The notes beneath the pieces are model-generated. The model worked only from the letters and a program-made list of their open reading frames with translations. It did not search any database and was not told where the DNA came from. Below are positions 2,229 through 20,005 of a stretch of 35,563 nt of DNA, one piece after another. Both the position numbers and the translations under genes were made by a program. The DNA is taken from positions 1 to 35,563 of the IMG/VR virus record IMGVR_UViG_3300021364_000078, one strand, 5' to 3'. Within the stretch, counting starts at the first letter, position 1. Each line of letters starts with the position of its first letter. This stretch comes from a virus.

Positions 2229-5200
2229 ATGAAGTTTTTTAAGAGACAAACCATACATGAGAGAAAGGTCGGAGACGGTAGTATAATACTGACTGCTGAC
2301 GGTAATGTTGAAATTACTCCTCCAAGCGGAGAGGTAACAATAGATGGTAATGTCAACATTTCCGGAGATGCCTCTGGACCAAAAACAACTGATGTATTAT
2401 ATGTTAGCCAAGATGGCGACGATGCAAACGATGGGCGCAGCGAAGGAAAGTTTGGTGCTAAAAGAACTATCAAAAGTGCAGTAGAACAGTCTGTTCCTGG
2501 AACAACAATTATTGTTGCACCAGGTGATTACTATGAAAACAATCCAATTACTTTACCTGACTTTGTAACTATAACAGGGCAAGGCGAACTACGTAATACA
2601 AGAATATTTCCAAAAAATAACACACAAACAATTTTTTATGTAGGTAACGGTTGTTATCTATACCAGTTAACATTCCGTGGTTTAAGATATCCAGGCTGGT
2701 GTGCAGAAATACGTCCAGGCACACTTTGCACAACCTCACCTTATATTCAAAACTGCACAAACATGAATGGTCCTTGGCTTAATGATGGAACAGAATTTAT
2801 ACCTTTTGAAACAGTTCAAATAGAAGGCATCGAACCTAGTGCAAGACCACTGATGGTTGAGGATTATCCAGATTTACCATTTGACAAACAAATAAATGAC
2901 ACTGGCGGCGGTGGAGGTATGTATGTCGATGGTGACGCATACGATCCTGCTTCGCTTGTGTTTTCATTTGTTGCAGACGCATTTACGCAGATTGCTCAGG
3001 GTGGTATAGGATTCTGGATTGATAACTTTGGTTATACTCAAATCGTTTCTTGCTTTACAGTTTTCTGTTCAACAGGATTTAAAACTACAAACGGCGGTTA
3101 CCTGTCAATTTCAAACTCAGTTAGTGACTTTGGATTAGAAGGTTGTGTTGCTGACGGGTTTTATCCAATTGCATACACCACAGCAAAACCTACCCAAGAC
3201 TATTTTTCAAGTGTAGCTAGTGTGACTGTAGATAATCCTGGCGCAGGGTATACATCAGCACCTACAGTTACTTTTGAAGCACCTGAAGGTGCTGGCGGAA
3301 TTACTGCTACAGGCACAGCAGACATTGATAACACAACAGGTAGAGTTTCTGGAGTAACAATTCTAAATGGAGGAAGCGGGTATACTAGAATTCCTTCAGT
3401 TACATTTTCAGGAGGCGGACCTACTGTTGACGCCCAAGGTATTGTAAACTTATCAAGTAACACAGTTATACAAATTGACAGTTTGAGAGACAAGCCGGCA
3501 ACAGGTAGTATTATAAAATTCCAAGAGGACGACACATACTATTTCATTACTGGTTCTGAAATAGTTCAGCCTCCTTTTGTTTACGATGAGGACGTATGTA
3601 GAAGAGATACAAGGCGAATAATTGATGCTGTAACCGGGGATGTTGTTCTAGGAACAACCTATCAATCTCAAGCAGCAGCTACAAGTTATTTACGTGCTAC
3701 AGCAAGCAAAGTTTTACTCGATCAATTAGCACCTACAGTTTATGCATTAGAAGCAGCTAGAGACTACATGAAAGCTGAAATTACTAATGAAGCAATGAAG
3801 GATGAAATTGATCAGCGCTTTAACATTATTACCAGCACATTAAATGCGGGTGATAGCAGTGTTATACCAGAAGCTGGCAGTGATTTGGTTTTAAATGATC
3901 TACCAGATATTGATCCAGGTATAAAACAAGCTAAAGACAACATCTTAGATAATAGAGATTTTATTATTGAAGAAGTAACTGCATACATAAACGATCAGTT
4001 TACAGAACTCAGCTACAACCAATTGCAATATGAAGAAGATATGCAAAATCTAATAAAAGGTATTGCAATGTATGTTGCTTTAGGCAGCAATCAACATGTT
4101 GTTAGATTAGGACAAGAAATTGAGATTAGAGCTAGATTTAAAACATTGTATATCAACAGTTTTAAATTTATACAAAATGCACTAGAAAATCTTGCTCAAG
4201 TCCAAGCAGATGCTACAGCTTTAGAGCGTGTAACTGAAGGAATGAATACGTTTGTTAACATCACAGACGATGGCGATAGCAGTCTTATTGTAATCGATAT
4301 TCCAAATCACGATGGTGCATCAGGAACTTCAAATCCAAAAGACGCAAAGGATCAATTGCTTGCAAACAAAGATTTTATAACAGCTGAATTTGTTGCCTAT
4401 ATACAAAATGAAAATCCTGATTTTACAATTGATGCAGCACAGTTTGAATTAGACTTTGAAAGATTTGTAGAAGCATTAGCATTTGACGTGTTGTATGGTG
4501 GCGATAGTGCTACAGTGCAAGAAACCAAATACTATTATGGAAATTTTGATTTTACTGCTCTAGAGTCAACTGAATTACAAACAATGGTTGATGCATTTGC
4601 AAGAATGAGATTTGTATTAGGAAGAGTTGTTAGAGGACTATTTGTAACAAAAACACCAGGCAATGCTGAATCACAGGACTTTTCACAACTAACAGCAACA
4701 GCCAGTGAAGCTGATGCTATTGATGCTTTGTTATTCAACACACAAGATGTTATTGAAAATCTTACACTTACAAGATTGCCTACTGAAAAAACATATCCAG
4801 TTTTTGAAACAGAAGCGCAAGCATTGCAAGATGCAGCAAACACAGTATTAGGCCAAGAAACAATAATTATAGCTAATGCACAAGCAGATATAAATGCTAC
4901 ATATCCTACGCTTACTTACAACATAGACAAGTGTAAACGTGATGTAGGATATATTATTGATGCTGTGTATATTGATGCACAATTGGAATCAAACCACAAC
5001 AGTATTACAGCCGGTCTTGCTTATCACAGAGCAAACACTGCGTATTTGAATGTTGAACAAAAGCCAGCAACAATTATAGCATTATTAGAAGCTAAAAGAT
5101 TGAGTGTAGATGCAGCAGCTAGAGATGTAAATTTTGCTAATAGAGTAGATGCTCTTTGGACAGATGTAATCAATCTAATACAATATGATCAGTTACCAAG

Positions 5201-8200
5201 CGAAGGAACTGAATATACTGTTCCTGGCCCAGCAAGCAATGAACTTATATACACACGAGATCAGTTGGTAGCCAACAGAGATTTCTTAAAAGCAGAAACC
5301 ACTGCATACATTAACAACAACTACTTTGTATACGACCAAGCCAAGTGCGAAAGAGACACTGGTTTAATTATTGATGCTGCTTATTATGATGCTGCATTAG
5401 GAACGAATTACAATGCAGTAACAGCAGGTCTTGCTTATCAGAGAGCAAACAGTGCATATGTTCAAAGCGATCAACAAACAGAAACTGTTGCTGCAATCAA
5501 TTTTGCAAAAGGCGAAGCTAGCACAGCAACAGCAGGCGATGCTACTGCACAAAGTCGTGTTGAAGCAGCATTTGATGAAGTAGTTGATATTATTGTTAAC
5601 GGAACAACCAGCACAGATGATGCTGCTGATACACTAGTATGGAACACAGTAAACTTACAAACTGCATTTCAGGTTCAAGCAAAAAATCAACTGCAAAATA
5701 ACAGAGAATTTTTAGCAGCAGAAGCAGTAGCATTTATTGAAAATAACTATGTAAACTTTACTTACGACCAGGCCAAGTGTGAAAGAGATATTGGCCTAAT
5801 GTTGGATGCAGTAGCACTTGATGTTGCACTTGGAACAAACTATAACAGTGTTACAGCAGGTCTTGCTTATCAGAGAGCAAGTAGCAGTGTAGTTCAAGAC
5901 GGTCAGCTATTACAGACAAAAGCAGCAATTGAATTTTTAAGAGATGCAACAGTTCTTTTAGGATTTACTCAAGATGCAGAAACAAGAGTATTAGCAGGTT
6001 TTAACGAAATAATTGATATACTTGAAAATGGAGTTGTTAGCACAGATACAGCAGCAGATGCATTGGTATTTCCAACTCCAACAGGAGCAAGTGCAGACAA
6101 AGTTGCAGCAAAAGATCAATTAATTGCAAATAAAGAATTTATAAAAGATGAAATTATAGCATGGATTGCTGCAAACTTTCCAAGTCTAACATATGACTCA
6201 ACCAAATGCGAAAGAGATGTTGGTTATATTGTTGATGCATTGTGTCATGATATTTTATACGGAGGAAACTTTGCAACTCGAACAGTGGCAAACAGCTACT
6301 TTGTAGATGGAGTCAGTCAACTAGGCGATCCTGCAGAAGAAGCTGCAACGGCAGATGCTTATGGAAGATTAGCAGATATTGTAGGCGATATTGTAATTGA
6401 AGCTGCTGTAGTTAAAACACCAGCAAACGCATTAAATCAAGACACAACAGGCACTCCAGCAAGCTCTACAGAAGCAGATGAAGTATCGGGCTTAGTCCAA
6501 GTTATAAGACAAGTTATTGCAGATGGCAATTTAACAAGTCTTCCAACAGAACAACTTCCTAGTGTGCTTTGGGCAACAGTAGATTATCAGCAAGGTTACA
6601 ATACTATTAAAGGCAACAAAGTATTGCTTCAAACTGATACAACTGACTTTATATCAGATACCTTCCAAAGTTTTACATTTAACACTGATAAATGTAATAG
6701 AGACACAAAATACATTGTTGATGCACTAACGTATGATATCTTTTATGGTGGTAATAGTGCAAGTGTTGAAGCAGCAAGAAGCTACTTTGTTGGTGCCGTT
6801 AGTCAAGTTGCTGGACAGCAAACCGAAACAGCAAATGCCTTAGCATATATTTCTACAATAATTAGAGATGTGTTACTAGATGTAGCGGTTGCAAATCCAG
6901 AACAAACTGATGAAACACAAGATACAACTGCAAGCACTGCTACTAATGATGAAGTTACAAAAGCACAATCATTACTACAGACTTTCCAGGATGTAATTAT
7001 CAACGGAATTGATAATCTTCCTACTGTAACTTATCCAAATGCAAATCCAATTACACCAAGTGAATTAAGCATACAGGCTGCTGTTGATAATTTAGCATCT
7101 GAAAAATCTACTATTATTACAGATACAATAGACTTTATTTCAACTACATACAATGGATTTAGTTATGACGAAGATAAATGTGCTAGAGATGTAGGATACA
7201 TTGTTGACGCTGTTGTTCACGATGCATTATACACAGGTAATTATGCTACACTGGTAGCAACTAATGCTTATTTCTTAGGAGCAGCGCAATACATTCCTCC
7301 TAGTCAGGTTTCACAAACTGTAGATGCATTTACACATTTGAAATCAGTAGCAGGTGAATGTATTAAAGGTGTTGCTGTTACTCCTACACCAGGAAATGCA
7401 GAAACACAAGTTTTAGGTGGAAATTACGGCACCACAATAGAAGAAGCAACATGCGATGATTTATTTGATCTTGTAATTGATGCTATTAATACAGGTGGCA
7501 CAGTAGGACCTCAGTATACACAAGTATTACCAGACTTTACTTGGTTAAGTGATGCAACAAAATTGGTTGCAGCAGATCTACTAAGTCAAAAAGCCATAAT
7601 ACAAAACACTGTTATTACATACATTACTGATAACTTAATTGGTTTCGAATACAATATTGACAAGTGTAAAAGAGATACAGGTTATATTATTGATTCTGCA
7701 ATATACGATATGATGTATGGCGGTAACAAGCAAACTAAACGTGCAGCAGAAGCATATTATAATGGAGCAATCCTAGGTGCTGCAAAAGTCGGAAATGCAG
7801 ATCAAACCTTAGTAACTGCCTATACATATTATCATTTGGCAAATGTAATGCAAAAGGTAGCAAACAATGTTGCTATCACAAAGAGTTATAATAACCCGGA
7901 AACGCAAGATTTAAGTATACCAGATGGATCTACCATAGGCGGTGATACATTAAAAATACTAGTTGATAGAATAGGTTTAGCTATACAACAAGAGTATACT
8001 ACAGGTTGGACACAACTAGAACACAACTATCTATTAGGTAGTAGTGAATACTTAGAAGATCGAAATACAATTCTCGAAGCCGAAGATTCAATTGTAGATA
8101 ATACTATTGCAGACTTGAATTTACAATTTGGTGGTATTGCTAACATTACAGTATTCCCAGGAGTTGTAAGTGTAACTACAGATAAATTTGCTGCACTTTA

Positions 8201-8903
8201 TAACGTGTCAACTATTTCAACATCGGGTCATGCCTTTGAATACGTAGGTGCTGGTATAACATACAATGCACTTCCGTTCTTTGGCGGAACTGCAATACCT
8301 GAAGAAGAAATTAAAGAATCAAACCAAGGTAAAGTGTTTGCCGGAGGCACAGTTGACCAAATTGGTAACTTTAGAGTTGGTAACTTCTTTGCAGTAAATG
8401 CTCTTAATGGTAGTATTACACTTAACGCTAATCAATTAAACCTAAGCGGTTTAACAAGTATTGGACCACTGATTAGAGACGGTGTGCCAGTTGGTGTTGA
8501 GATGAAAGAAATCAGCAACAACCCAGCATTGTTAGCAAGCACAGGTGCAATAGATGCAAACACTGTTCCTACACAAGCAGCAGTTTCAACATATGTTGAA
8601 AACAGATACTTAAACAAACTTACAGGTGGCACTGTAAACGGTAGCACAACGTTTGATATTGACGTAACTGTTGACGGAACTTTAATTCTAACAAATAACG
8701 ATTTAGAAGTTCAATACGGCGGAACGGGTGTAAGCGAATTCACAGAAGATGGTATTTTGTATGGTGACACTGCTAACCCTATAAAAGTTACGGCAGCAGC
8801 AGGCACATCCGATGCAACAGACAGTTTCCAAATACTCACTGTAACAAGTGATGTTGATAGCACTCCAATATGGACTGACACAATTGATGGTGGTAGCTTC
8901 TAA
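2229..8903 (+). CDS. Giant fibre-like structural protein with K-C-x-R-D repeats, 2224 aa
   Basis: This is a very large virion protein, probably a tail fibre or side appendage. Residues about 55-330 look like a right-handed beta-helix (pectin-lyase type): VYVSQDGDDANDG, then short strand repeats and SPYIQNC near 171. Residues about 335-400 hold two G-x-GYT repeats (PGAGYTSAPTVTF, GGSGYTRIPSVTF). From about 450 to 1950 there are ten copies of a mainly helical repeat keyed by K-C-x-R-D-x-G-Y-I-I-D-A; the Cys is at 457, 902, 1040, 1184, 1327, 1489, 1651 and 1813, and two copies near 601 and 739 lack it. A module near 2003 (GAGITYNALPFFGG) and a GGTGV segment near 2164 end the protein. Start is coupled to the gene before. 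It is a paralogue of the 3253-residue protein downstream but lacks its S74 chaperone. Host-binding function is inference. Confidence 0.85.
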   Translation: MKFFKRQTIHERKVGDGSIILTADGNVEITPPSGEVTIDGNVNISGDASGPKTTDVLYVSQDGDDANDGRSEGKFGAKRTIKSAVEQSVPGTTIIVAPGDYYENNPITLPDFVTITGQGELRNTRIFPKNNTQTIFYVGNGCYLYQLTFRGLRYPGWCAEIRPGTLCTTSPYIQNCTNMNGPWLNDGTEFIPFETVQIEGIEPSARPLMVEDYPDLPFDKQINDTGGGGGMYVDGDAYDPASLVFSFVADAFTQIAQGGIGFWIDNFGYTQIVSCFTVFCSTGFKTTNGGYLSISNSVSDFGLEGCVADGFYPIAYTTAKPTQDYFSSVASVTVDNPGAGYTSAPTVTFEAPEGAGGITATGTADIDNTTGRVSGVTILNGGSGYTRIPSVTFSGGGPTVDAQGIVNLSSNTVIQIDSLRDKPATGSIIKFQEDDTYYFITGSEIVQPPFVYDEDVCRRDTRRIIDAVTGDVVLGTTYQSQAAATSYLRATASKVLLDQLAPTVYALEAARDYMKAEITNEAMKDEIDQRFNIITSTLNAGDSSVIPEAGSDLVLNDLPDIDPGIKQAKDNILDNRDFIIEEVTAYINDQFTELSYNQLQYEEDMQNLIKGIAMYVALGSNQHVVRLGQEIEIRARFKTLYINSFKFIQNALENLAQVQADATALERVTEGMNTFVNITDDGDSSLIVIDIPNHDGASGTSNPKDAKDQLLANKDFITAEFVAYIQNENPDFTIDAAQFELDFERFVEALAFDVLYGGDSATVQETKYYYGNFDFTALESTELQTMVDAFARMRFVLGRVVRGLFVTKTPGNAESQDFSQLTATASEADAIDALLFNTQDVIENLTLTRLPTEKTYPVFETEAQALQDAANTVLGQETIIIANAQADINATYPTLTYNIDKCKRDVGYIIDAVYIDAQLESNHNSITAGLAYHRANTAYLNVEQKPATIIALLEAKRLSVDAAARDVNFANRVDALWTDVINLIQYDQLPSEGTEYTVPGPASNELIYTRDQLVANRDFLKAETTAYINNNYFVYDQAKCERDTGLIIDAAYYDAALGTNYNAVTAGLAYQRANSAYVQSDQQTETVAAINFAKGEASTATAGDATAQSRVEAAFDEVVDIIVNGTTSTDDAADTLVWNTVNLQTAFQVQAKNQLQNNREFLAAEAVAFIENNYVNFTYDQAKCERDIGLMLDAVALDVALGTNYNSVTAGLAYQRASSSVVQDGQLLQTKAAIEFLRDATVLLGFTQDAETRVLAGFNEIIDILENGVVSTDTAADALVFPTPTGASADKVAAKDQLIANKEFIKDEIIAWIAANFPSLTYDSTKCERDVGYIVDALCHDILYGGNFATRTVANSYFVDGVSQLGDPAEEAATADAYGRLADIVGDIVIEAAVVKTPANALNQDTTGTPASSTEADEVSGLVQVIRQVIADGNLTSLPTEQLPSVLWATVDYQQGYNTIKGNKVLLQTDTTDFISDTFQSFTFNTDKCNRDTKYIVDALTYDIFYGGNSASVEAARSYFVGAVSQVAGQQTETANALAYISTIIRDVLLDVAVANPEQTDETQDTTASTATNDEVTKAQSLLQTFQDVIINGIDNLPTVTYPNANPITPSELSIQAAVDNLASEKSTIITDTIDFISTTYNGFSYDEDKCARDVGYIVDAVVHDALYTGNYATLVATNAYFLGAAQYIPPSQVSQTVDAFTHLKSVAGECIKGVAVTPTPGNAETQVLGGNYGTTIEEATCDDLFDLVIDAINTGGTVGPQYTQVLPDFTWLSDATKLVAADLLSQKAIIQNTVITYITDNLIGFEYNIDKCKRDTGYIIDSAIYDMMYGGNKQTKRAAEAYYNGAILGAAKVGNADQTLVTAYTYYHLANVMQKVANNVAITKSYNNPETQDLSIPDGSTIGGDTLKILVDRIGLAIQQEYTTGWTQLEHNYLLGSSEYLEDRNTILEAEDSIVDNTIADLNLQFGGIANITVFPGVVSVTTDKFAALYNVSTISTSGHAFEYVGAGITYNALPFFGGTAIPEEEIKESNQGKVFAGGTVDQIGNFRVGNFFAVNALNGSITLNANQLNLSGLTSIGPLIRDGVPVGVEMKEISNNPALLASTGAIDANTVPTQAAVSTYVENRYLNKLTGGTVNGSTTFDIDVTVDGTLILTNNDLEVQYGGTGVSEFTEDGILYGDTANPIKVTAAAGTSDATDSFQILTVTSDVDSTPIWTDTIDGGSF
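3576..8090 (+). repeat. Ten-unit protein repeat array (K-C-x-R-D repeats)
   Basis: This coding repeat encodes units with the pattern (F/L)-x-Y-(N/D)-x-x-K-C-x-R-D-x-x-x-I-(I/V)-D-A, a nearby YGGN or LGTN segment, and downstream (L/F)-P-T and N-(K/R)-x-F-I segments. Cys codons lie at 3597, 4932, 5346, 5778, 6207, 6693, 7179 and 7665. The last four are exactly 486 bases apart, while earlier units are 414-432 bases long. Two units without Cys are centred at 4029 and 4443. DNA identity between units is modest, so these are old duplications. Confidence 0.85.
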
Positions 8904-8918
8904 AAAGCTACCACTTTT
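8890..8918 (+). terminator. Terminator overlapping the stop codon of the 2224-aa fibre
   Basis: GTGGTAGCTT (8890-8899) pairs perfectly with AAGCTACCAC (8905-8914) around a five-base loop, followed by TTTT. The left arm encodes the last residues of the fibre and the loop contains its TAA stop, so the terminator is built into the coding end. Confidence 0.85.
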
Positions 8919-8926
8919 ACTCCTAT

Positions 8927-8934
8927 GATAAATA
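8927..8934 (+). promoter_or_regulatory. Late promoter (GATAAATA) for the 3253-aa fibre
   Basis: GATAAATA starts nine bases after the T run of the preceding terminator and 85 bases before the next ATG. The expected start, about six bases after the box, is near 8940. The giant fibre gene therefore has its own late transcript. Confidence 0.7.
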
Positions 8935-8936
8935 AC

Positions 8937-8961
8937 TTTATAACGATTTCTATCGTATAAA
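8937..8961 (+). promoter_or_regulatory. 5' leader hairpin of the 3253-aa fibre transcript
   Basis: TTTATAACGAT (8937-8947) pairs with ATCGTATAAA (8952-8961) with one bulged A and a TTCT loop. It sits at the predicted 5' end of the late transcript. No T run follows, so it is not a terminator; a 5'-end stabilising role is inference. Confidence 0.5.
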
Positions 8962-9011
8962 AACGGGCGTCTGCATAGACCTGACCCAGACCTAAATAGG
9001 AGGCAGCCGTA

Positions 9012-12000
9012 ATGGCAACAAAGATTAGACACAAGCGAAGTGCGGTCGCGGGTAAACAACCCCTAGTATCTCAATTAGATTCAGGCGAATTAGCAATTAA
9101 CACAGCAGATGGTAAAGTTTTCCTACTGCGTGACGATTCAACAGTTCAAGATATTACAAAACGTATTTTTGACAATGATACAGAAATTGTTGTCACCGAT
9201 CAAGGTGCAGAGAATGTAGCAGAAATAAATGTTAGAATGAACGGAGTTGATACTGCTCAATTTACAGCAGCAGGTATGAACTTGTATAATGATTTAGATA
9301 TCGAAAATGCAAAAACTTTAACATTCAAAGAACTTACCGCAGCAGGCGACGACGGTGTAGGTATTAAAGCACCGGATGTGTTAGACTCAGGTTACAATAT
9401 GACATTGCCTCCGTCACAAGGAACAGTGGGTCAGATATTAGCAACAAACGGAAGCGGTGAATTATTTTTCCAAGATGCTGATATCTTTGGAGGAAACACA
9501 GTATATGTTTCGCAAGAACAAGGTGATGATGCTAACGATGGACAGAGCGCTCCAGTTAGAACTGTTAAAAGAGCCTGTCAAATTGCCTCCGGGTTGGTTT
9601 ACAATGCAGACGGTAGTATCAACTTTAAACGTGTAAACATCAAAGTTGCGGTTGGCGACTATACAGAACAAAACCCAATTATTGTTCCAGATAACACAGT
9701 TATCAAAGGCGACGGTTTGCGTGGTTGTATTATCCGTCCTGCAAACGCCAACTTGGACATGCTACGTGTTCGTAACGCATGTTACTTTGGTGAATTTACG
9801 TTCCGTGATGGTGTAGACAACAACTTTGTTCCTACTATTACAGCAGACTATGCCGTGGCATTTGACGATCCTTTTGATCCTGCTGTAACAGACCGTGCAG
9901 ATTATACAAATCTACCAGATACAAGACCAACAATCTTTACATCACCATATATTCAGAACTGTTCGATTATTTCGTTCTTAGGTATGAACGGTGCTAAGAT
10001 TGACGGTTCAAAAGTTGAATCACCCAACGTTCCGACATACGGTATTGAGGCTGAGAATCCGGTTATTGGTGCTATACCTGAACAAGGTAAGTCAATGGTT
10101 GCTAACGCATTTACTATTCTATCATTTGGTGGAACAGCGTGGCGACTAACCAACGATGCTTATGCACAGATCGTGTCTTGTTTCGAAATTTTCCTACTCA
10201 ACGGTGTTTACTGTCAGTCAGGCGGATATTGTTCAATTACCAACTCTGCTACAAACTTTGGTTTATATGCTCTTAGAGCTAGTGGGTTTTCGCCAAAAGC
10301 ATTCCAATTTGATAGAAGTTTTGTTACAGCAACCGGTGCTGCTGACGGAAAACAAACAGTAAGCATTGTAGGTATTAATCGTGACGCTCCTGTTGAAGAA
10401 TTTGTTTTACGCTTTAGAGAATCAGAATATAAGAAAGCATATGAGTTACTTTTATCAAACAAAGATCTAATTGCTTCAGATGTTGTTACATGGATTAACG
10501 GACAAATCAGTGCAGCAACACCTAGTATCTGGGCAGGCTTTACATACAATGAAGACAAATGTAAAAGAGATGTTCAAAAAATATTAGATGCAATTAGATA
10601 TGATATTTTATTCAACAGTAATTACAGAACAATTAGTGCAGCATTACGCTATTTTAACGGTAATGGAACATATTTCTTAAACAACCAAGTCGACCAAACT
10701 GTTGCAGCTTTTGCTCAAGCAAAAACGTATACAGCTAACTATTTGTCAGATGCAACTGCGACCAGCAGAGCAAATGCGCTGTGGGATGAAGTAATTGACA
10801 TTATTCAAAATGGTGAAGGTAATGCTGATGCATACAGCTATCCTACACCAACAAGCGGCACTGATAATGCTAGTGATACTGGTTATTTAAATGCAGCTAC
10901 CCAATTAACAAACAACACTGCATTTATAAAAGACGAAGTAAACAGCTGGATTGCAGATCAGGTATCCGGAGAAATAGCACCTTTTACAAGTAGTTTTGTT
11001 TACGACACTGCAAAATGTGCAAGAGACATTGGTCTTATAATTGATGCGTTAATTTATGACTTAACCTACGGCGGTAATTTACAAACTTACGAAGCAGCAC
11101 TTGCATACTTTGTTGACGGTGTAGCACAATACGGTAGCGGCCAGTTAGAAGAAACTGTTGCTGCTTATGGTAGATTGAAAACAGTAGTTGAACAAGTTAT
11201 TGTTGAAACTGCGGTAACAACATCAAGTGGAACTGTAGAAACACAAGACACAACAGCAGATGCTGGTAGTGCAGCCGCAGCAACCACAGCCGGCGATAGA
11301 ATACAAGAAATTATTGATTACCTAAACGATTCGTCAACTCTTCCAACTAGAATTGAGCCGGATCTTACTTGGGTAAACAGTAATCCGGAATATAGTGCCT
11401 ATGCAGAATTAGACACCACAGGTCAAATTAATATAGCACAAAATGTTACACAATGGATTAATGAACAAATCCAGGCTAACATTTGGTATGGATTTACATA
11501 CGATGCATCCAAGTGTAACAGAGATACTCAACTTATTGTAGAAGCTGTTGCAAAGGACACTTGGGACACAGGTAACAGATATTCACGTAGTGCTGGTCTT
11601 GCATACTATACACGTAACTTGCAAGATAGTTCTCAGATAACAATCAGTGGGCAGGAATTACAAACTATTGCTGCTATTGATTATGCTAAAACAGAAGCAT
11701 TAACGTATATTTCAAGTTTGGCAACAGCAGTGCAAGATTTTGTCGGAGCAAGTTTTGATATTGTTACTACAATTATTAATGATCCTAATGACTTGCCAGA
11801 TCCTACTGAAGTAAGTAGTGCAGGCGATATTACAAATAATTACAAAACTACTCCTACAGAAACAACATTTAATGCTGCCACAGCAGTCAATGCAACTACT
11901 AACATTATAACAATTGTAGGACATGGATTTACAAACGGACAAAAAGTTATTTACGATCCAAATGGTAATGCAGTAATACAAGGACTTGACGACGAACAAC

Positions 12001-15000
12001 AATATTATGTCAAACTTCTTAGTGAAGATGAATTTACACTAGCGTTTGACGATAGTTTGGATTTTGATGTTAACATTATTTCTACAAGCACAGGCACACA
12101 CAAATTCCTTTCTGGTGTAATAGAATTCTTTGTTGACGAGATTTTAAGTAGTCACACAACTTACCAAACACTAGAATTAGAATCTGGATCTGAAGGATTT
12201 GAATTTGTTCCTGGTAGAGCAATTACAGGCACAACAGGATCAAATAATAACAGTGCTATTGTTACAAGTTGGACACCTAGAGATCGTTTACTTGTAGTCA
12301 GTATTGAAGAGGTTGCAGTAGGACAAAGTCTACTGCGTATCCAATTTGACGAAACAAGTGTTATTGATTCGGACCATACAAGTGGCACACCTAATACTAA
12401 TATTGGTGTTAACGAAGCTGCTTCTAAACTAGGACTAGGCACAGCAACATTCAGTGTTACAGCTACAGACGGAAGTAGTGCATTGTCTAATCTATCAAAC
12501 CTGCCAGAAGTGCAATGTTGGTTCCACAGGCCTTCTGTTGTTAACTCATCTGCACACACTTGGGAATATGCAGGTTCTGGAACAGACTATAATGCATTAC
12601 CACAAAACGGTGGTAACACTAGATCAGAATACGAACAGTTTGAAGAATTGCCAGGACGAGTTTATTCATCAGGAACAAACGAACTTGGTGACTTTAAAGT
12701 TGGTGACTTTATTACAGCGTTTAACAGAACTGGTAATATTACCTTTAGAAACAAAGTGCAGGTGGACGAACTTGATGCACTGAGATTGAGCTTGTCAGAT
12801 GTTGCTATTGAAGAAATTTCAACCAGTGTTAACTTGGGTGACGATGAAATTGGCGGACCTGCTGATAGTAGACTTCCTACACAGTTAGCAGTAAGAAGCT
12901 TTATTAGTAACAGACTAGGTGGCTTTGTTGACAAAACTGTATCTACTGCGGCCGTGCCGGGTGCTATTGTTCAGTTGAACGTCAATGGCCAGCTAAACCC
13001 TGATTTGATTCCGGCCACACGTCAGTTTACAAACACAAATACACCAGGTTACCAATCACGACTAGAACAAGTAGACGATATTCCAGCTGTTGATTTGAAA
13101 GCTGGTGATATTGCTACTGAGAACTACGAACAGGTAGAACTTGCATTGAGCGGCATCATCACCGCTAATGACGGCGATGAAATAACACAACCTGGTGTAG
13201 CAGGAGCCGTGGCGTATTCAAAAGGCAACTACAGCCTAAGCACTAACATACTTGTTGTTACACAGGGCGGTGCCTGGGATGATAACGAAGACTCAACAGG
13301 AGATCCATGGGAAGTAAGTGCAGGAAATCTTTTTGTAAATGGCGTAGATTCAGGCGTAAACATTACATCTAAAGGACCAAGCACAGAGATTGTTGACAAC
13401 TGGTTCTTACGTAGTTCAAATTCAAGTCAGTTCTTGGTATTAGATGCAACTCAAAGTTATACGTTTACCACTGATGAAACATGTAGTTTGACATTTGCAG
13501 AACGTAACAGCGATATTGCAACTGTAACAACCAGTGCTGCACACAATCTACAAGTAGGTAATACAGTTCAAATTTTGAACACAACAGACGAAACATTTAA
13601 TGAAAATGGTCTAGTTTTAAGTGTTCCTAGCTCTACGACATTTACTTACACAAACGTAGACAGTGCTGATCCTACAAAAGCAAGTGCAGCAGCAACAGGA
13701 ACAGTTAGAACTATTGTTACCTCTGCAGACGGTAATGCTCAAGGTGCTGTTACAGAATTCCGCAGTGGTATTGCTGTAAACGTAGACAACGCAAATATCG
13801 TAGGCGGTAGTGGTTACCAGCCTGTTTTAGGAACACTGGTTTACGAAAGTGTGCCATTACAAGCCAAAACAGGGTCAGGAACAGGAGCAACAGCTAACCT
13901 TACAATCACAGCAGGACAGGTAACAGATGTTGATGTAAACAGAGGTGGAACCGGGTATGCTGTGGGCGATCTATTAGAAATCAATGCCAGTGATGTGGGT
14001 GGCACAGGAAGCGGATTTGAAATAGAAGTAACAGCTATTGAAAAACGTGCATATGTGAATATTTTAGGTGGCGAACTGTTTGTTGCTAGTGCATCATCAT
14101 TAGACTTTGTGGAAGATAACACTGCTGTTGCTACTGCAAAAGAAATAAACCTAGACGATGTTATAACACATAATTTCTTAGCTGGTGATGTAAGTGGTGG
14201 CGGTAATGTTGACTATACAACTTATAGAATAACAATTCCAAACCACGGAATGAAAAATGGCGATCCGGTATTGTATGATACTATAGGAAACGTTCCAATT
14301 GGCGGATTGTTAAACGAACAGGTATACTATGTAAAGCGTATTGATAGTAATACTATTGAATTATATGAAGGCTTTGCACTACTTAATCAAGTTGAATTTA
14401 CAAGCACACCGGCTAACAACAATCATAACATCACACGTCAAACAATAAACATAACAGATAATAGTATTATTGTTGAGGATCACGGTTTAACCACAGGTGA
14501 TGCTATACGTTTTGAATCATTAACTGATGGATCAAGTGCTAACGAACTGTTCGGCACAGTTGGCGCAGGCGGACCAGTTGACACCGGCTCTAGATTCTTT
14601 GTTGGTTCTGTTACTACAAACTCATTTACAATACACGCACTGCGTTCTGACGCATTGAGTAGCATAAACGACTTGGTAACAAATGCTCAAGATATTACAA
14701 CAATAGGTGTAGGAACTGCTGAAGTTATTACTAACAATGTTCAAGTTGAAAGTGTAATTAATACATCAAGTAGATTGCTTGATAACTGGAACACACTTGC
14801 TGTTACAAACATTGACGCAGAAAATATTATTTCGGGAACTATTTCACCTTCGAGATTGGCAAGTGCAGGAACACCTAACACAGATACTTTCTTGCGTGGT
14901 GATAGTAGCTATCAAACTGTTGTTCAAAGTCTTAAAGTTGCAAATACAACAGACAACCCAATTACACTTACAGGATCGAGTTTAAGTGGCGAATTCTATG

Positions 15001-18000
15001 GTGATCCAGTTAACATTGGTATTTCCAACGTCGACCTAGATGTTCTTGGAACATTTTCAACATTAGGTGTTGCTAGATTCTTACAGTCACAATTTGATGT
15101 GGATGCAGGCGGATCAGGACAAGTATTCATCAAAGACGGTGTTGTTGACGCAGGAACGTTGGATAGTTTAGACAGTGCTTACTTCCTCAATCCAAACAAC
15201 CTAACCAGTCTTGTTCCTGTAACTAGAGGCGGAACAGGCATTGGAACTTATACTGTTGGTGCTATTGTATATGCACAATCAACATCAACACTAAATGAAT
15301 TAGAAATAGGAAGACAAAATACTTTCTTAAGATCAAACGGCACTACACCAGAGTGGGGCACAGCACTTGATCTTGCTGAAGGATTGGACGTTGGATCAGC
15401 AGCACTTACATCATCAAGCACAGGTGCTGGTAGAGTTTATAACAGCAATGTAAGTAGTTTAAAAATTGGAGGCGATGCAACCAATATTACAATTGGTAGT
15501 GCAGCAGGATCAAGAAATTTATTTACATTTATTGCTAGCTATGAAGCAACAATTTCTAGAGATGTTGCAGTAAATTTAGAAAGCATAGTTGCAAACACTG
15601 CTGAAGCAGCAGGCAATGGCGACAAAGAAATTATCTTATCAGATACAACTGGCATTTTGGCTGGAATGATTGTAACTGGTAGTGTGGCTATTCCTGCTAA
15701 TACAACTGTAAGTGGTGTCACTGACGATGCAATATATCTAAGTAATGCTACAACAGGAAGTATACTTACTAGCACTGCACTAACCTTTACTTATACTCCT
15801 TATACTTTAGGTATATCAGTTGGTGATAGAATTAATATTGCAACCAGTGGTGTAACCAATCTAGACGGAACATGGCCTGTTAGTGGTGCTACGGCAACTG
15901 CTACATCTTTTACAATTAGAACAGACGATCTGGTTACAGCAGATCCGTTAGATGTTCCTGCAGGATCAGCTACCATTAACGGTAACCTAGTTCTTCGTAA
16001 CGAAAGTATTGTAATAGGACAAGCAGAAACAGATACTGCACCTAACGATGGAATTATAAAAGGGGTAAACGCACTTGGAACAGATGTTTCAGGTGGTGAT
16101 CTTACTATACAAGCAGGGTTAGGCACAGGCGCTGCTACAGGCGGAGATGTTATTATCAAAACGGGAGACGTAGGTTCTACCGGTGATATACAAAATGATG
16201 CACAAGTAAGAATGCGTTTTAATGCAGGCGGCGATACAGAAGTTACTGGATACACAAATTTCTCAACAGATGGTGCAATAAACTTTCCTGTTGGTAATAC
16301 CGCAGCTAGAACATCCCCACCAGCAGCAGGTGATGCAAGATTCAACAGTGAGATTGTAGCATTTGAAGGCTACGATGGAACAAACTGGGCACCACTAGGT
16401 GGTGTAATTGATGTCGATCAAGACACAAAAATCATTGCAGAGACAAGTGCAGGTGCTGATAACGATGACTTAGACTTCTTTACAGCAGGTGTCCAAAGAT
16501 TGTCGATTGACCAGGATGGTGATTTTAGATTTGGTGCATCTATTAACAAAGTTATAATGGACGGCGCAACCGGCGACACTAACATTGCAGGCACATTAAC
16601 TGTAGAAGGTGACTTTGTTGTAAATGGAACAACCACAACAATCAACGCTACAACACTTACAGTTGATGATAAAAATATTGAACTAGGATCGGTTGCATCA
16701 CCAACAGATGCAACAGCTAACGGTGGTGGTATAACACTAAAAGGTGCTACAGATCACACAATAACATGGTCAAATGCTAACGCTAGTTGGGATTTCAGTG
16801 AACATGTAAATATTGTTAGCAACAAAGAATACAGAATTGCAGATACCAAAGTGTTAGATGCAACATCTCTAGGTGCTAACATTGTTGATAGTAGCCTAGT
16901 AACCAGTGCGTTAACAACTGTTGGAGCTCTAGACTCAGGTAGCATTACCAGCGGCTTTGGAAATGTTAATATCGGAACAAATACATTTACTGGTAACGGT
17001 AGTGGATTGACTACGCTAAATGCTAGCCAACTTACAACTGGCACTGTTGCAGGTGCTCGCTTAGGCGGTAATCAAACAATGGCAGGTGTTAAAACATTCA
17101 GTAACACCAGTTCTGCAACTTCAACTACAACAGGTGCTGTTAGAATAAGCGGAGGCTTAGGTGTTGCAGGAGCATTGTTTGCTGGTAGTCTAAACACAGC
17201 AGACGGTAGTGGTATAGGAAACTTGAATGCAAGTAACCTGGATAGCGGAACTGTTCCAAACGGTAGAATCACAGGCATATACAGTAACCTAACTGGAACT
17301 GGTGCTTTAAACCAAGGTAGTATTACAAGCGGCTTTGGAAATATTAATATTGGAACAAGCACATTTACAGGTAACGGTAGCGGTCTTACAAACGTAGATG
17401 CAGAAACACTGGATGGACTAGATAGCACAGCATTTTTACAACGCACTGGCGGAACAATGACTGGTAACATCACTTTCAGTGATGACCAAGAAGGTGTTGT
17501 TTGGAGTAGAAACACCGACGGTGCAAGTATTAGATTCTACAACACAGGTGATGGCGATAGTAACAGTAGACTAGAATTTAACATCAACGACAACGCCAAC
17601 GAAGACTTCCGTTTCACATATACTCAAAGTGGAACAACAACAGAACTGCTTCGTATGTTACCAGATGGTGGACAAAATGGTATCACATTCCGTGGAAACA
17701 CTGTTTGGCATGCTGGCAACGATGGACCAGGGTCAGGACTAAATGCAGACCTATTTGATAACCTAGGTAGCGGATCATTCTTACGCAGTGATGCAAATGA
17801 CAGTTTCTCAGGAACACTTAGTGGTAGCGGCGCTATCAACATCAGCGGTAATATTACAGCTAATGTATTCACCGGAGATGGTAGCGGACTAACAGGTATC
17901 AGTGCCGACAATGCTAACACATTAGATGGATTAGATAGCACACAGTTCTTACGTAGCGATGCAACTGATATCATGACAGGTTGTTTGGTATTTAGAGGAC

Positions 18001-18773
18001 AAGTTGACAACTATGACGGTAACGACAGAAGTGCCTACTGGGATTATGACAACAAAGTTGCAGCAGCTTTTGAACCAGCTGCTAACGACGGTGCTGTTGC
18101 TATACTATTCAAATCGGTAGGTAACTCACCAAGTGACTTTGCATACATTGTTTATGACGAAGATTATCCAGAAGCAGGAGTTTCTGCTGGTGAAATTGGT
18201 TGTTTACTTTTAAGTTCACAAAATGACGGAACAGGATCATCTGACCATGTGCGTGTGAAATCTCGTTTGGTTGTTGAAGCTGATATCTCAAGTAGTGATC
18301 CTACCAATGCTTTCCAAGTTAAAGCAACCAACACCACAACAGACTTGTTTAGAGTTGCACGTGGCGGCGGAGTTTTCTCATCCGGCGAAGTTACAGCTTA
18401 TTCATCAGATGCCAGATTGAAAACAAATATAAGCCCAATTACAAATGCTATTGAAAAAGTAAAACGCTTGAATGGTGTAAATTATGATTGGGTTGAAAAC
18501 ATCGAAGAGTTAGGATTTAATCCTAAAATCAAATACAATGATGCAGGTGTGTTAGCACAAGAAGTGCAAAAAGTGCTTCCACAGGCTGTTGCACCAGCAC
18601 CGTTTGATGTAAGTGTTAATCCGTCAACTGGAGAAGAAACCAGCAAGTCAGGCGAAGAATACTTAACAGTTAAGTATGAAAAGATGGTTCCGTTGCTTAT
18701 AGAAGCAATCAAAGAACAGCAAAACGAAATCGACGAACTCAAGGAGATGGTTAAGAAACTACTCGATAAATAA
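9012..18773 (+). CDS. Giant tail fibre protein with C-terminal S74 chaperone, 3253 aa
   Basis: This is probably the main long fibre. The start has a strong ribosome site (AGGAGG) and the fibre N-terminal signature ELAINTADGKVFLLRDD. Residues about 165-440 are beta-helix-like (VYVSQEQGDDANDG, SPYIQNC). Three K-C-x-R-D repeats follow, with Cys at 517, 669 and 835. Several H-G-x-x-x-G-D/Q-x-V modules lie near 970, 1509, 1744 and 1823, and a YNALPQNGG module matches the upstream fibre. The last third is a shaft of repeats such as FTGNGSGLT and TLDGLDSTAFL. From about 3130 the S74 intramolecular chaperone begins with SSDARLKTNI; family knowledge puts self-cleavage before Ser3132, releasing about 122 residues. 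GVLAQEVQKVLPQAV and a C-terminal coiled coil are the other S74 signatures. The protein should trimerise and then shed the chaperone. Confidence 0.9.
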   Translation: MATKIRHKRSAVAGKQPLVSQLDSGELAINTADGKVFLLRDDSTVQDITKRIFDNDTEIVVTDQGAENVAEINVRMNGVDTAQFTAAGMNLYNDLDIENAKTLTFKELTAAGDDGVGIKAPDVLDSGYNMTLPPSQGTVGQILATNGSGELFFQDADIFGGNTVYVSQEQGDDANDGQSAPVRTVKRACQIASGLVYNADGSINFKRVNIKVAVGDYTEQNPIIVPDNTVIKGDGLRGCIIRPANANLDMLRVRNACYFGEFTFRDGVDNNFVPTITADYAVAFDDPFDPAVTDRADYTNLPDTRPTIFTSPYIQNCSIISFLGMNGAKIDGSKVESPNVPTYGIEAENPVIGAIPEQGKSMVANAFTILSFGGTAWRLTNDAYAQIVSCFEIFLLNGVYCQSGGYCSITNSATNFGLYALRASGFSPKAFQFDRSFVTATGAADGKQTVSIVGINRDAPVEEFVLRFRESEYKKAYELLLSNKDLIASDVVTWINGQISAATPSIWAGFTYNEDKCKRDVQKILDAIRYDILFNSNYRTISAALRYFNGNGTYFLNNQVDQTVAAFAQAKTYTANYLSDATATSRANALWDEVIDIIQNGEGNADAYSYPTPTSGTDNASDTGYLNAATQLTNNTAFIKDEVNSWIADQVSGEIAPFTSSFVYDTAKCARDIGLIIDALIYDLTYGGNLQTYEAALAYFVDGVAQYGSGQLEETVAAYGRLKTVVEQVIVETAVTTSSGTVETQDTTADAGSAAAATTAGDRIQEIIDYLNDSSTLPTRIEPDLTWVNSNPEYSAYAELDTTGQINIAQNVTQWINEQIQANIWYGFTYDASKCNRDTQLIVEAVAKDTWDTGNRYSRSAGLAYYTRNLQDSSQITISGQELQTIAAIDYAKTEALTYISSLATAVQDFVGASFDIVTTIINDPNDLPDPTEVSSAGDITNNYKTTPTETTFNAATAVNATTNIITIVGHGFTNGQKVIYDPNGNAVIQGLDDEQQYYVKLLSEDEFTLAFDDSLDFDVNIISTSTGTHKFLSGVIEFFVDEILSSHTTYQTLELESGSEGFEFVPGRAITGTTGSNNNSAIVTSWTPRDRLLVVSIEEVAVGQSLLRIQFDETSVIDSDHTSGTPNTNIGVNEAASKLGLGTATFSVTATDGSSALSNLSNLPEVQCWFHRPSVVNSSAHTWEYAGSGTDYNALPQNGGNTRSEYEQFEELPGRVYSSGTNELGDFKVGDFITAFNRTGNITFRNKVQVDELDALRLSLSDVAIEEISTSVNLGDDEIGGPADSRLPTQLAVRSFISNRLGGFVDKTVSTAAVPGAIVQLNVNGQLNPDLIPATRQFTNTNTPGYQSRLEQVDDIPAVDLKAGDIATENYEQVELALSGIITANDGDEITQPGVAGAVAYSKGNYSLSTNILVVTQGGAWDDNEDSTGDPWEVSAGNLFVNGVDSGVNITSKGPSTEIVDNWFLRSSNSSQFLVLDATQSYTFTTDETCSLTFAERNSDIATVTTSAAHNLQVGNTVQILNTTDETFNENGLVLSVPSSTTFTYTNVDSADPTKASAAATGTVRTIVTSADGNAQGAVTEFRSGIAVNVDNANIVGGSGYQPVLGTLVYESVPLQAKTGSGTGATANLTITAGQVTDVDVNRGGTGYAVGDLLEINASDVGGTGSGFEIEVTAIEKRAYVNILGGELFVASASSLDFVEDNTAVATAKEINLDDVITHNFLAGDVSGGGNVDYTTYRITIPNHGMKNGDPVLYDTIGNVPIGGLLNEQVYYVKRIDSNTIELYEGFALLNQVEFTSTPANNNHNITRQTINITDNSIIVEDHGLTTGDAIRFESLTDGSSANELFGTVGAGGPVDTGSRFFVGSVTTNSFTIHALRSDALSSINDLVTNAQDITTIGVGTAEVITNNVQVESVINTSSRLLDNWNTLAVTNIDAENIISGTISPSRLASAGTPNTDTFLRGDSSYQTVVQSLKVANTTDNPITLTGSSLSGEFYGDPVNIGISNVDLDVLGTFSTLGVARFLQSQFDVDAGGSGQVFIKDGVVDAGTLDSLDSAYFLNPNNLTSLVPVTRGGTGIGTYTVGAIVYAQSTSTLNELEIGRQNTFLRSNGTTPEWGTALDLAEGLDVGSAALTSSSTGAGRVYNSNVSSLKIGGDATNITIGSAAGSRNLFTFIASYEATISRDVAVNLESIVANTAEAAGNGDKEIILSDTTGILAGMIVTGSVAIPANTTVSGVTDDAIYLSNATTGSILTSTALTFTYTPYTLGISVGDRINIATSGVTNLDGTWPVSGATATATSFTIRTDDLVTADPLDVPAGSATINGNLVLRNESIVIGQAETDTAPNDGIIKGVNALGTDVSGGDLTIQAGLGTGAATGGDVIIKTGDVGSTGDIQNDAQVRMRFNAGGDTEVTGYTNFSTDGAINFPVGNTAARTSPPAAGDARFNSEIVAFEGYDGTNWAPLGGVIDVDQDTKIIAETSAGADNDDLDFFTAGVQRLSIDQDGDFRFGASINKVIMDGATGDTNIAGTLTVEGDFVVNGTTTTINATTLTVDDKNIELGSVASPTDATANGGGITLKGATDHTITWSNANASWDFSEHVNIVSNKEYRIADTKVLDATSLGANIVDSSLVTSALTTVGALDSGSITSGFGNVNIGTNTFTGNGSGLTTLNASQLTTGTVAGARLGGNQTMAGVKTFSNTSSATSTTTGAVRISGGLGVAGALFAGSLNTADGSGIGNLNASNLDSGTVPNGRITGIYSNLTGTGALNQGSITSGFGNINIGTSTFTGNGSGLTNVDAETLDGLDSTAFLQRTGGTMTGNITFSDDQEGVVWSRNTDGASIRFYNTGDGDSNSRLEFNINDNANEDFRFTYTQSGTTTELLRMLPDGGQNGITFRGNTVWHAGNDGPGSGLNADLFDNLGSGSFLRSDANDSFSGTLSGSGAINISGNITANVFTGDGSGLTGISADNANTLDGLDSTQFLRSDATDIMTGCLVFRGQVDNYDGNDRSAYWDYDNKVAAAFEPAANDGAVAILFKSVGNSPSDFAYIVYDEDYPEAGVSAGEIGCLLLSSQNDGTGSSDHVRVKSRLVVEADISSSDPTNAFQVKATNTTTDLFRVARGGGVFSSGEVTAYSSDARLKTNISPITNAIEKVKRLNGVNYDWVENIEELGFNPKIKYNDAGVLAQEVQKVLPQAVAPAPFDVSVNPSTGEETSKSGEEYLTVKYEKMVPLLIEAIKEQQNEIDELKEMVKKLLDK
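10540..11830 (+). repeat. Three K-C-x-R-D repeats in the second fibre
   Basis: These units match the repeats of the upstream fibre (FTYNEDKCKRDVQKILDA, FVYDTAKCARDIGLIIDA, FTYDASKCNRDTQLIVEA). Cys codons lie at 10560, 11016 and 11514, so the spacing is 456 and 498 bases. Their presence in both fibres points to duplication and unequal expansion of a shared module. Confidence 0.8.
18765..18772 (+). promoter_or_regulatory. Late promoter box embedded at the fibre stop codon
   Basis: GATAAATA here is made of the last codons and stop of the fibre gene (GAT AAA TA of TAA). The expected transcript start (about 18778) falls at the left arm of the next hairpin. It would drive the 58-aa, 123-aa and glycosyltransferase genes. 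Confidence 0.45.
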
Positions 18774-19043: not shown

Positions 19044-19415
19044 ATGAAAACACTTTATGAAGTCTTGAATGTAGACTTGGCCGAAGAATATACAAAGGTA
19101 AGAAAAGAAAACACTTTACTTGCTCTTGATCTAGACGACGAACTAGAAGCACAAGTTATTGCAGAAATTCAAGCTATGGATATTCCAGAAGATGATGAAA
19201 GTTATCACTGGACACACAAATTTGGAAAATTAGCAGGAGCAGATCTTTTAACCTTAGGAAAAGTTCAACCAGAAAACATGTTGGCTATGGCTAATCTAGG
19301 AGACGAAGATTTCCAAAAAGCAGTGAAAATTGCAACAACTTCTGCACGTTCAATGAATACGCTTACAGTAGAAGCAGAAAAAGAACTTAATCAAGAGACA
19401 GCACCAACACTATAA
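19044..19415 (+). CDS. Conserved-looking hypothetical protein, 123 aa
   Basis: This 123-residue acidic protein starts MKTLYEVLNVDLAEEY after an ATAGGAG ribosome site. It is predicted to be largely helical, with many Glu and Asp, no Cys, and no membrane segment. A central SYHWTHKFGKLAGADLLTLG stretch is the most distinctive part. The stop TAA overlaps the ATG of the glycosyltransferase gene (TAATG), so the two are translationally coupled. I do not recognise the family. Its position between a fibre-tip-like gene and glycosyltransferases would suit an assembly or regulatory partner, but this is a guess. Confidence 0.7.
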   Translation: MKTLYEVLNVDLAEEYTKVRKENTLLALDLDDELEAQVIAEIQAMDIPEDDESYHWTHKFGKLAGADLLTLGKVQPENMLAMANLGDEDFQKAVKIATTSARSMNTLTVEAEKELNQETAPTL

Positions 19416-20005
19416 TGCAATTAAGTATTTGTATTCCTGCTCGAGATCAGGTTCATACAGTATTTGCTCGTAGTCTTGCGTATCTTACAAGTAAACTTAC
19501 TGCAAAGAATATAAATTATGATTTGCATATTGTGTCAAGCAGCGTTATTGCTGAATCAAGAACACGGTTAGCAAATGAAGCATTGAATGCAAATGCTACT
19601 CATTTGCTTTGGTTAGATACTGATTTACATTTTCCACCAACTATAGTAGATACCTTTTTAAAACACGACAAAGATATTGTAGCAGCAAACTATAGCACTA
19701 GATACAGTCCTTACCAATCTGTTGCATTTACTGATCCTGACAATATAGAGGAAAGATTGGATGCTACTCGTGGTTTACACAAGGTGTGGGCAGTGGGTAT
19801 GGGATGTATGATGATAAAAGCAGAAGTTTTTGACAAACTTCCTAAACCTTGGTTTGCTCATCAATATAATAATGAAACCGATAACTTCAGCGGCGAGGAT
19901 ATATATTTTTGTAATCTAGCATACAAACACAACATTGATGTTTGGATTGATGCAGATGTAAGTATGCAAATGGCACATATAGGAATAAAGGCTAATAAGT
20001 TATGA
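19415..20005 (+). CDS. GT-A type glycosyltransferase (family 2-like), 196 aa
   Basis: This is a predicted cytoplasmic glycosyltransferase using a nucleotide-sugar donor. The N-terminus MQLSICIPARDQVHTVF matches the first strand of GT-A enzymes. HLLWLDTDLHFP (residues about 63-74) gives the D-x-D metal-binding motif. GMGCMMIKAEVF (about 130-141) and FSGEDIYFCNLA with a late MAHIG His complete the usual acceptor-side motifs. It is shorter than typical bacterial family 2 enzymes but matches phage-encoded short forms. It overlaps the genes on both sides (TAATG and ATGA). The target could be a virion protein or a host glycan; the sequence does not say which. Confidence 0.8.
   Translation: MQLSICIPARDQVHTVFARSLAYLTSKLTAKNINYDLHIVSSSVIAESRTRLANEALNANATHLLWLDTDLHFPPTIVDTFLKHDKDIVAANYSTRYSPYQSVAFTDPDNIEERLDATRGLHKVWAVGMGCMMIKAEVFDKLPKPWFAHQYNNETDNFSGEDIYFCNLAYKHNIDVWIDADVSMQMAHIGIKANKL

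Follow-up and report, generated by a model that had tools for sequence, protein, structure and literature searches.

Phycobiliprotein-like repeat units with a putative ligand pocket in two giant phage tail fibers

We analyzed a 35,563-base virus record (IMG/VR IMGVR_UViG_3300021364_000078, positions 1 to 35,563; here called the window) that carries tail sheath, tube and head-closure genes together with two giant fiber genes. Thirteen repeats built around the motif K-C-x-R-D lie in the two fibers. Judging from predicted models and profile alignments, these units almost certainly have the fold of the phycobiliproteins and are remote homologues of them. We further consider it fairly probable that they form tandem phycobiliprotein-like beads, each with a ligand pocket, which in at least some phages would hold covalent bilins.

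A profile built from the 13 units matched exactly 13 places in the window, ten in fiber 1 and three in fiber 2 (weakest E, 2.9e-38). Because the profile was built from these same units, this result shows the coherence of the family and not its independence. An earlier, sequence-only reading of the window had counted the same ten and three copies, and its placement of them was essentially correct, as the profile matches cover 3483 to 8018 (fiber 1) and 10422 to 11858 (fiber 2). The fibers and their units are as follows.

2229 to 8903, plus strand: giant fiber protein 1, 2224 residues (open reading frame and translation; PHROG tail fiber families, E 5.5e-107)
3483 to 3908, plus strand: fiber 1 unit 1, C-R-R-D, atypical N-terminal part (profile E 2.9e-38; alignment)
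3915 to 4313, plus strand: fiber 1 unit 2, Cys and Arg lost (Y-E-E-D) (profile E 6.8e-40)
4326 to 4808, plus strand: fiber 1 unit 3, Cys and Arg lost (F-E-L-D), long class (profile E 5.4e-52)
4815 to 5228, plus strand: fiber 1 unit 4, C-K-R-D, short class (profile E 4.2e-45)
5235 to 5636, plus strand: fiber 1 unit 5, C-E-R-D, short class (profile E 1.8e-47)
5661 to 6083, plus strand: fiber 1 unit 6, C-E-R-D, short class (AlphaFold2 model of window 5658 to 6098)
6090 to 6572, plus strand: fiber 1 unit 7, C-E-R-D, long class (AlphaFold2 model of window 6087 to 6590)
6576 to 7046, plus strand: fiber 1 unit 8, C-N-R-D, long class (profile E 2.8e-50)
7065 to 7544, plus strand: fiber 1 unit 9, C-A-R-D, long class (profile E 1.8e-56)
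7548 to 8018, plus strand: fiber 1 unit 10, C-K-R-D, long class (profile E 3.3e-48)
9012 to 18773, plus strand: giant fiber protein 2, 3253 residues (PHROG tail fiber, E 3e-191)
10422 to 10853, plus strand: fiber 2 unit 1, C-K-R-D (profile E 1.3e-48)
10884 to 11372, plus strand: fiber 2 unit 2, C-A-R-D (profile E 9.9e-51)
11385 to 11858, plus strand: fiber 2 unit 3, C-N-R-D (profile E 1.2e-39)

In fiber 1, the ten units stand between an N-terminal and a C-terminal part. In fiber 2, the three units are followed by a long C-terminal shaft and, last, by a Peptidase_S74 chaperone (chaperone of endosialidase; PF13884; window 18405 to 18590, E 8.7e-16). The anchor-to-anchor steps are 144, 138, 163, 138, 144, 143, 162, 162 and 162 residues in fiber 1 and 152 and 166 residues in fiber 2. 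These spacings bear out the two length classes of the sequence-only reading, including its last three fiber 1 steps of exactly 162 residues. Its single conserved Cys in each unit held for 11 of the 13 units; the strict pattern C.RD matches eight times in fiber 1 and three times in fiber 2. Tyr and Phe replace the Cys in fiber 1 units 2 and 3 (anchors at residues 601 and 739), where the Arg is lost too, and units 7 and 9 have Cys outside the motif as well.

One unit of each length class was modeled. AlphaFold2 predicted the long unit (unit 7) with a predicted local distance difference test score (pLDDT) of 96.0 and a predicted template modeling score (pTM) of 0.90. Its best VIA match was phycoerythrin (2vjh_B; Z 15.9, 2.1 Å over 130 residues). 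All 50 VIA matches listed were phycobiliprotein-type chains (Z 15.9 to 14.1), including one titled only "bacterial fluorescent protein," which is a phycoerythrin relative, and the first 21 PDB rows from Foldseek were all phycobiliprotein entries (E 0.005 to 0.043). The short unit (unit 6; pLDDT 89.2, pTM 0.84) was predicted as seven helices and had allophycocyanin as its best VIA match (9i1r_A; Z 16.8, 1.8 Å over 120 residues). Its 50 listed matches (Z 16.8 to 15.0) comprised phycobiliproteins, the ApcE bilin domain and biliproteins made by engineering or design, among them smURFP (6fzn, Z 15.2) and one designed near-infrared protein; Foldseek rows 1 to 37 were all phycobiliprotein chains. Helical models can reach a Z of 14 through a common arrangement, but then with a Z of 6 (up to 13) at rank 50, compared with 14.1 and 15.0 here. 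A search of the viral library BFVD with the unit gave 20 rows at E ≤ 0.001, which are predicted tail and structural proteins of cyanophages.

In the predicted models, the helices correspond to A, B, E, F', F, G and H of the phycobiliprotein globin fold, and the segment from helix G to helix H is longer in the long class than in the short one. Residue 1 of the unit aligns to phycobiliprotein residue 31 to 35 in most of the single-domain chains listed. The N-terminal X and Y helices are absent from long and short units alike, and the short units, with 138 to 144 residues, have no room for them. These helices pair the alpha and beta subunits of phycobiliproteins, and it is unlikely that the units, which do not have them, assemble into alpha-beta rings and harvest light.

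To compare sequences beyond the window, a single unit was scanned against viral contigs, which gave 125 related stretches, of which the best 80 were kept. An iterated profile found 653 domains in 117 open frames of these 80 stretches; the richest frame, of about 4180 residues, has 23. From 671 rows, we derived a set of 221 units by dropping those with fewer than 100 aligned residues or with at least 70% identity to a unit already kept. A second alignment of 129 rows consists of 120 units drawn at random from the 163 of these 221 that passed a length and strand filter, and of nine window units.

The 13-unit profile matched phycocyanin only weakly in the PDB, with the repeat Cys on the Cys of the phycocyanin K-C-x-R-D. 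The 129-unit profile had phycocyanin on top (E 0.012) and in 7 of 10 rows. In Pfam, PF00502 (Phycobilisome) was matched by 13 of the 129 units at E ≤ 1, and other families by no more than 2 of 129. A phage-only profile was also run on the 2433 open frames of 80 loci that had been retrieved from cyanobacteria by way of phycocyanin and that include 180 phycobiliprotein frames. Phycobiliproteins filled the first 84 ranks (best E, 0.0013) and made up 111 of the 119 matches at E ≤ 10. When each whole fiber was searched against the PDB as a single sequence, fiber 1 had no match and fiber 2 had matches to its shaft and C terminus only. One helix resembled vATP-synt_E (E 0.021), and the unit profile had matches to talin, Abl and pilin; we judged all of these to be chance. 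Six cyanobacterial proteins with C-W-R-D gave a weak alignment only.

Profiles were compared with each other by hhalign. The 221-unit alignment and an alignment of 44 full-length phycobiliproteins matched over 130 columns, with a probability of 93.3 and an E-value, for this one comparison, of 2.7e-7. In this register, the unit Cys falls on the bilin-attachment Cys and Arg-Asp on Arg-Asp. The match-column score was 42.6, and 100 column shuffles reached at most 18.6. When the motif was kept and the rest shuffled, the mean was 32.6 and the maximum 37.7. With the motif helix masked, the score was 20.5 in the correct register, compared with at most 12.2 in 100 masked shuffles and 11.2 for the reversed alignment. 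The flank signal thus survives masking of the motif, which argues for remote homology beyond a shared motif. An unrelated helical bundle that shares a short C-x-R-D helix by chance or convergence might draw on the facts that helical bundles often score well and that single-sequence matches are weak (best Pfam E, 0.0026). However, the two length classes, modeled separately, returned the same family among the matches listed, and the flank signal exceeded every shuffle. We regard this explanation as extremely improbable. The sequence-only reading had recognized no named family and had offered to give up its view of the repeat on a match to a described domain; fold and profile alignment now match the units to the phycobiliproteins, Pfam PF00502.

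Conservation around the Cys points to a ligand site. Among the 221 units, conservation was 0.89 for the Cys (197 of 221), 0.90 for Arg +2, 0.95 for Asp +3, 0.98 for Asp +14 and 0.90 for Tyr +30, and C-x-R-D was intact in 194. This lone-Cys pattern greatly exceeds what chance would give, and the family is a genuine helical repeat in which the Cys is conserved for a reason, as the sequence-only reading had supposed. Where the Cys is missing, bulky hydrophobic residues such as F, Y, W and L replace it, and other residues go with it: the 24 Cys-less units had lost Arg in 20 cases, Asp in 11, Tyr +30 in 15 and Thr +46 in 18, versus 3, 0, 6 and 22 among the 197 units with Cys. Asn -26 was retained in 22 of 23 Cys-less units. 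About 10 of the 24 Cys-less rows come from related phages and repeat a single pair of window positions, and we therefore recounted at 50% clustering (111 units). Arg was present in 96 of 96 units with Cys and in 3 of 15 without; the corresponding counts were 96 of 96 and 8 of 15 for Asp, 91 of 96 and 7 of 15 for Tyr +30, and 80 of 96 and 6 of 15 for Thr +46. Losses were weaker at Asp +14, Asn +20, Gln +42 and Tyr -5, and Asn -26, Glu -19 and Ile -22 were not lost with the Cys.

Residues of helix E, helix F and the F-G region are thus lost together while the scaffold is kept, which is the pattern of a ligand pocket. From this joint conservation and joint loss, we infer that the site would be a functional ligand pocket. 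According to a published study, CXRD is the chromophore-attachment motif of phycobiliproteins, in which Arg and Asp hydrogen-bond the bilin (PMC10151467). The sequence-only reading had proposed inter-chain disulfides, metal sites or a fixed packing role for the Cys, for which we found no support; joint loss with Arg +2, Asp +3, Tyr +30 and Thr +46 and a kept scaffold fit a ligand site better than a disulfide. A disulfide or metal site on the axis of a fiber trimer would suit a virion protein with one Cys per unit and few others (0.14 per unit). Conversely, in the monomer models the Cys belongs to helix E of a compactly folded globin, and the profile alignment pairs it with the bilin-attachment Cys; Arg and Asp, which a disulfide does not need, covary with it, and no Cys or His pattern accompanies it among the covarying positions. 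A disulfide or metal site is therefore very unlikely.

To place the units among phages, we searched annotated genomes and metagenomic records. A single unit matched 65 of 50,697 annotated phage records, all of them cyanophages, and the profile found units in 18 of 22 cyanophages tested, 7 of these 18 having been chosen because of a prior unit match. The profile found none in Pelagibacter phage HTVC008M, Atu_ph07, PA5oct, SCTP-2 or T4, and P-SSM2 and S-SM2 are cyanophages in which no unit came to light. Among metagenomes, the 80 unit loci led to 24 records that were searched whole. The window tail sheath (28228 to 31590, 1120 residues) is about 41% identical to those of the jumbo phages Phosso, Atu_ph07 and PA5oct, and its nearest relatives are those of jumbo phages of Sinorhizobium, Agrobacterium and Pseudomonas. 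Sheaths of this type are present in many viral contigs. Units were found in 12 of 26 metagenomic sheath relatives, which are a selection, from contigs of at least 20 kb, of 80 such relatives.

Cyanomyoviruses (S-PM2, Syn1, S-RSM4, S-WAM2, P-HM1 and others) carry the same units in giant fiber proteins and in gp7-type baseplate proteins, which are annotated only as short tail fiber, tail protein, structural protein or baseplate wedge. Four of the 78 cyanophage unit rows had a gap in the motif and were excluded from the motif counts. The gp7-type copies often have CxDD or CxTD rather than CxRD; among 35 gp7-type units there were 11 CxDD, 8 CxTD and 7 CxRD. S-SM1, S-SSM5, Syn19, Syn33, P-SSM7, P-RSM4, S-ShM2, P-SSM4 and Syn9 have very large frames with units, of about 6200 to 7100 residues in seven of these nine phages. 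Their units are mostly CxDD or CxTD, which looks like an exchange of the Arg.

Genes for bilin handling accompany the units in part of these phages. CpeT (bilin lyase family PF06206) was found in 14 of 18 cyanophages with units and in 0 of 4 without. Among the 15 cyanophages not picked by a unit match, the counts were 9 of 11 versus 0 of 4 (one-sided Fisher test, 0.011, which ignores kinship; Syn1 and S-ShM2, within those 15, were already known to have a unit match). The CpeT match is full length in five phages (S-PM2, S-CAM3, S-WAM2, Syn1 and S-RSM4), and in each of them CpeT lies 0.7 to 1.4 kb upstream of the giant unit-bearing fiber gene. In these neighboring fiber genes, the Cys is present in 27 of 27 units and C-x-R-D in 23 of 27, versus 7 of 35 for the gp7-type copies; for S-PM2 and S-CAM3, the units were read from the fetched part of the gene only. 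A separate observation concerns the S-PM2 record (NC_006820), which lists 16 tRNA genes inside the unit-bearing fiber gene (10185 to 15012 of the fetched locus). ARAGORN found no tRNA inside this gene and nine just upstream, around CpeT, so the tRNA coordinates of the record look misplaced.

Of the 24 metagenomic records, 4 have adjacent genes for heme oxygenase and bilin reductase; these 4 belong to the 8 records of at least 100 kb. By their listed coordinates, these pairs are not beside fiber genes. Photosystem II genes are absent from the unit-bearing contigs with such a pair. In the published account, phage CpeT and bilin enzymes support the host antenna (PMC10452541). A comparison of genomes describes what they do as a mystery or unresolved (PMC3037559).

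Several results weigh against bilin-bearing, phycobiliprotein-like fibers. The Foldseek E-values are modest (0.005 at best), and within the window PF00502 had no match at E ≤ 0.001 and none above its curated cut-off of 22.2 bits. Masking of the motif leaves a signal that lies mostly in the N-terminal part, and group-wise hhalign comparisons cover the N-terminal half and helix E only (CpcA, 41.6 over 55 columns; CpcB, 28.9 over 58). Owing to these half-length alignments and to the unreached Pfam cut-off, we call the units phycobiliprotein-like and remote homologues, and do not file them as PF00502 members. The Cys is dispensable in 24 of the 221 units and the Arg in many gp7-type copies. CpeT was found in 0 of the 24 unit-bearing metagenomic records, and only the 4 mentioned above have heme oxygenase with reductase; a 281,658-base record with 9 units has no reductase, heme oxygenase or CpeT, and a 256,558-base record, also with 9 units, has no bilin reductase. 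A firm link between units and bilin reductase, tested from both sides, was not borne out. Selection of records by a reductase relative gave 11 (the twelfth relative being the seed record, searched among the 24), of which 1 has units; bilin reductase was found in 0 of the 26 sheath-relative records, 12 of which have units. Since bilin genes are missing from most unit-bearing records, a phage-made bilin cannot be general, and a host-made one could be. Finally, psbA and psbD were found in 0 of 30 metagenomic records (27 with units), with both cyanophage controls positive. Most hosts may therefore not be cyanobacteria, and we dropped the idea that all unit-bearing phages are cyanophages. So far, neither a bilin nor an absorbance or mass shift has been seen.

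These results leave room for a phycobiliprotein fold adopted as a bilin-free structural bead, in which C-x-R-D would form an internal network of hydrogen bonds or packing contacts and so give helix E and the F-G loop their shape. The scarcity of bilin genes and the occurrence of units in phages without photosystem II genes agree with such a bead, as do the gp7-type baseplate copies, which keep the fold when the Arg is often gone, and the replacement of the Cys by bulky hydrophobic residues such as F, Y, W or L. However, a merely structural network does not readily account for the strict copresence of Cys, Arg and Asp at 50% clustering, for the way in which these three disappear together with Tyr +30 and Thr +46 but leave the scaffold unaffected, for a Cys position identical to the known attachment site, or for the CpeT gene next door in cyanophages. 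We consider the bilin-free bead rather unlikely, although it is by far the most serious of the alternatives.

In the account that we favor, each repeat would be a phycobiliprotein-like globin bead, and beads set head to tail would build the helical stretches of the fiber. The unit would keep a ligand pocket, with the K-C-x-R-D Cys at the bilin site next to the chromophore-holding Arg and Asp, and the ligand would be a bilin joined covalently to the Cys. The source of the bilin might be the host, or else a heme oxygenase and a bilin reductase encoded by the phage; in some cyanophages, the CpeT encoded next to the fiber gene might help to load it. For the identity of the ligand, a covalent bilin of host or phage origin, loaded by CpeT in some cyanophages, we see the chances as evenly balanced. 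Speculatively, a pigmented fiber rod could serve in light sensing, quenching or shielding, or the chromophore could stabilize, protect or stiffen the fiber.

The units share with the light-harvesting phycobiliproteins (PF00502; phycocyanin, phycoerythrin, allophycocyanin and the ApcE bilin domain) the same globin helices, the Cys-x-Arg-Asp in helix E at the attachment site and the 130-column profile alignment. They differ in having no X/Y helices, in their tandem fusion within virion fibers and in scoring below the Pfam cut-off. smURFP, an engineered, free, biliverdin-binding protein, and other small biliproteins show the same minimal phycobiliprotein fold; smURFP has no virion context, unlike the units. 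BBAG-1 and BBAG-3 (bilin biosynthesis-associated globins) of heterotrophic bacteria and cyanobacteria are phycobiliprotein paralogues, some with CXRD as in the units, and some BBAGs with CXRD are reported to bind bilins without a lyase (PMC10151467). BBAGs are free-standing cellular proteins from clusters with Fe-S and V4R genes, whereas the units are virion repeats. A cluster with heme oxygenase and a pre-PcyA-type reductase is a further mark of BBAGs, and the likeness, which we compared by description only, may extend to the adjacent heme oxygenase and bilin reductase of some unit-bearing records.

The analysis gives a name to a previously unrecognized domain, shared by most of the T4-like cyanophages that were tested and a large group of marine phages, in which its proteins are annotated only as tail fiber or structural protein. 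It also puts a fold known for binding chromophores into a virion, with the attachment site preserved. Among the open-licence papers searched, judged by title and the start of the abstract, we found no report of a phycobiliprotein-type domain in a virion, and an account elsewhere is possible. We suggest tentatively, and with somewhat less than even confidence, that the fibers of some marine phages are biliproteins with many covalent bilins each, and that phage bilin genes partly serve to pigment the phages' own fibers. CpeT, heme oxygenase, PebS, PcyA or PcyX would then work in part for the fiber and not for the host antenna, and a biliprotein tail fiber would be substrate and sensor in one. 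The pigment could also make adsorption light dependent. Light-dependent adsorption is reported for several marine cyanomyoviruses (PMC2984593), and a chromophore-responsive fiber would, speculatively, fit it.

Other genes of the window lie downstream of the fibers. An 876-residue protein (20002 to 22632) has about five loose repeats that end in TDMFWGIPDDV-like text; it had no Pfam match, and a DNA-level search gave no tandem repeat. An Anp1 glycosyltransferase-like protein (19415 to 20005) adjoins it. Among the tail genes are a NUDIX hydrolase (22604 to 23041), a T4 gp15-like sheath stabilizer (23055 to 24905) and a small methyltransferase (27119 to 27619).

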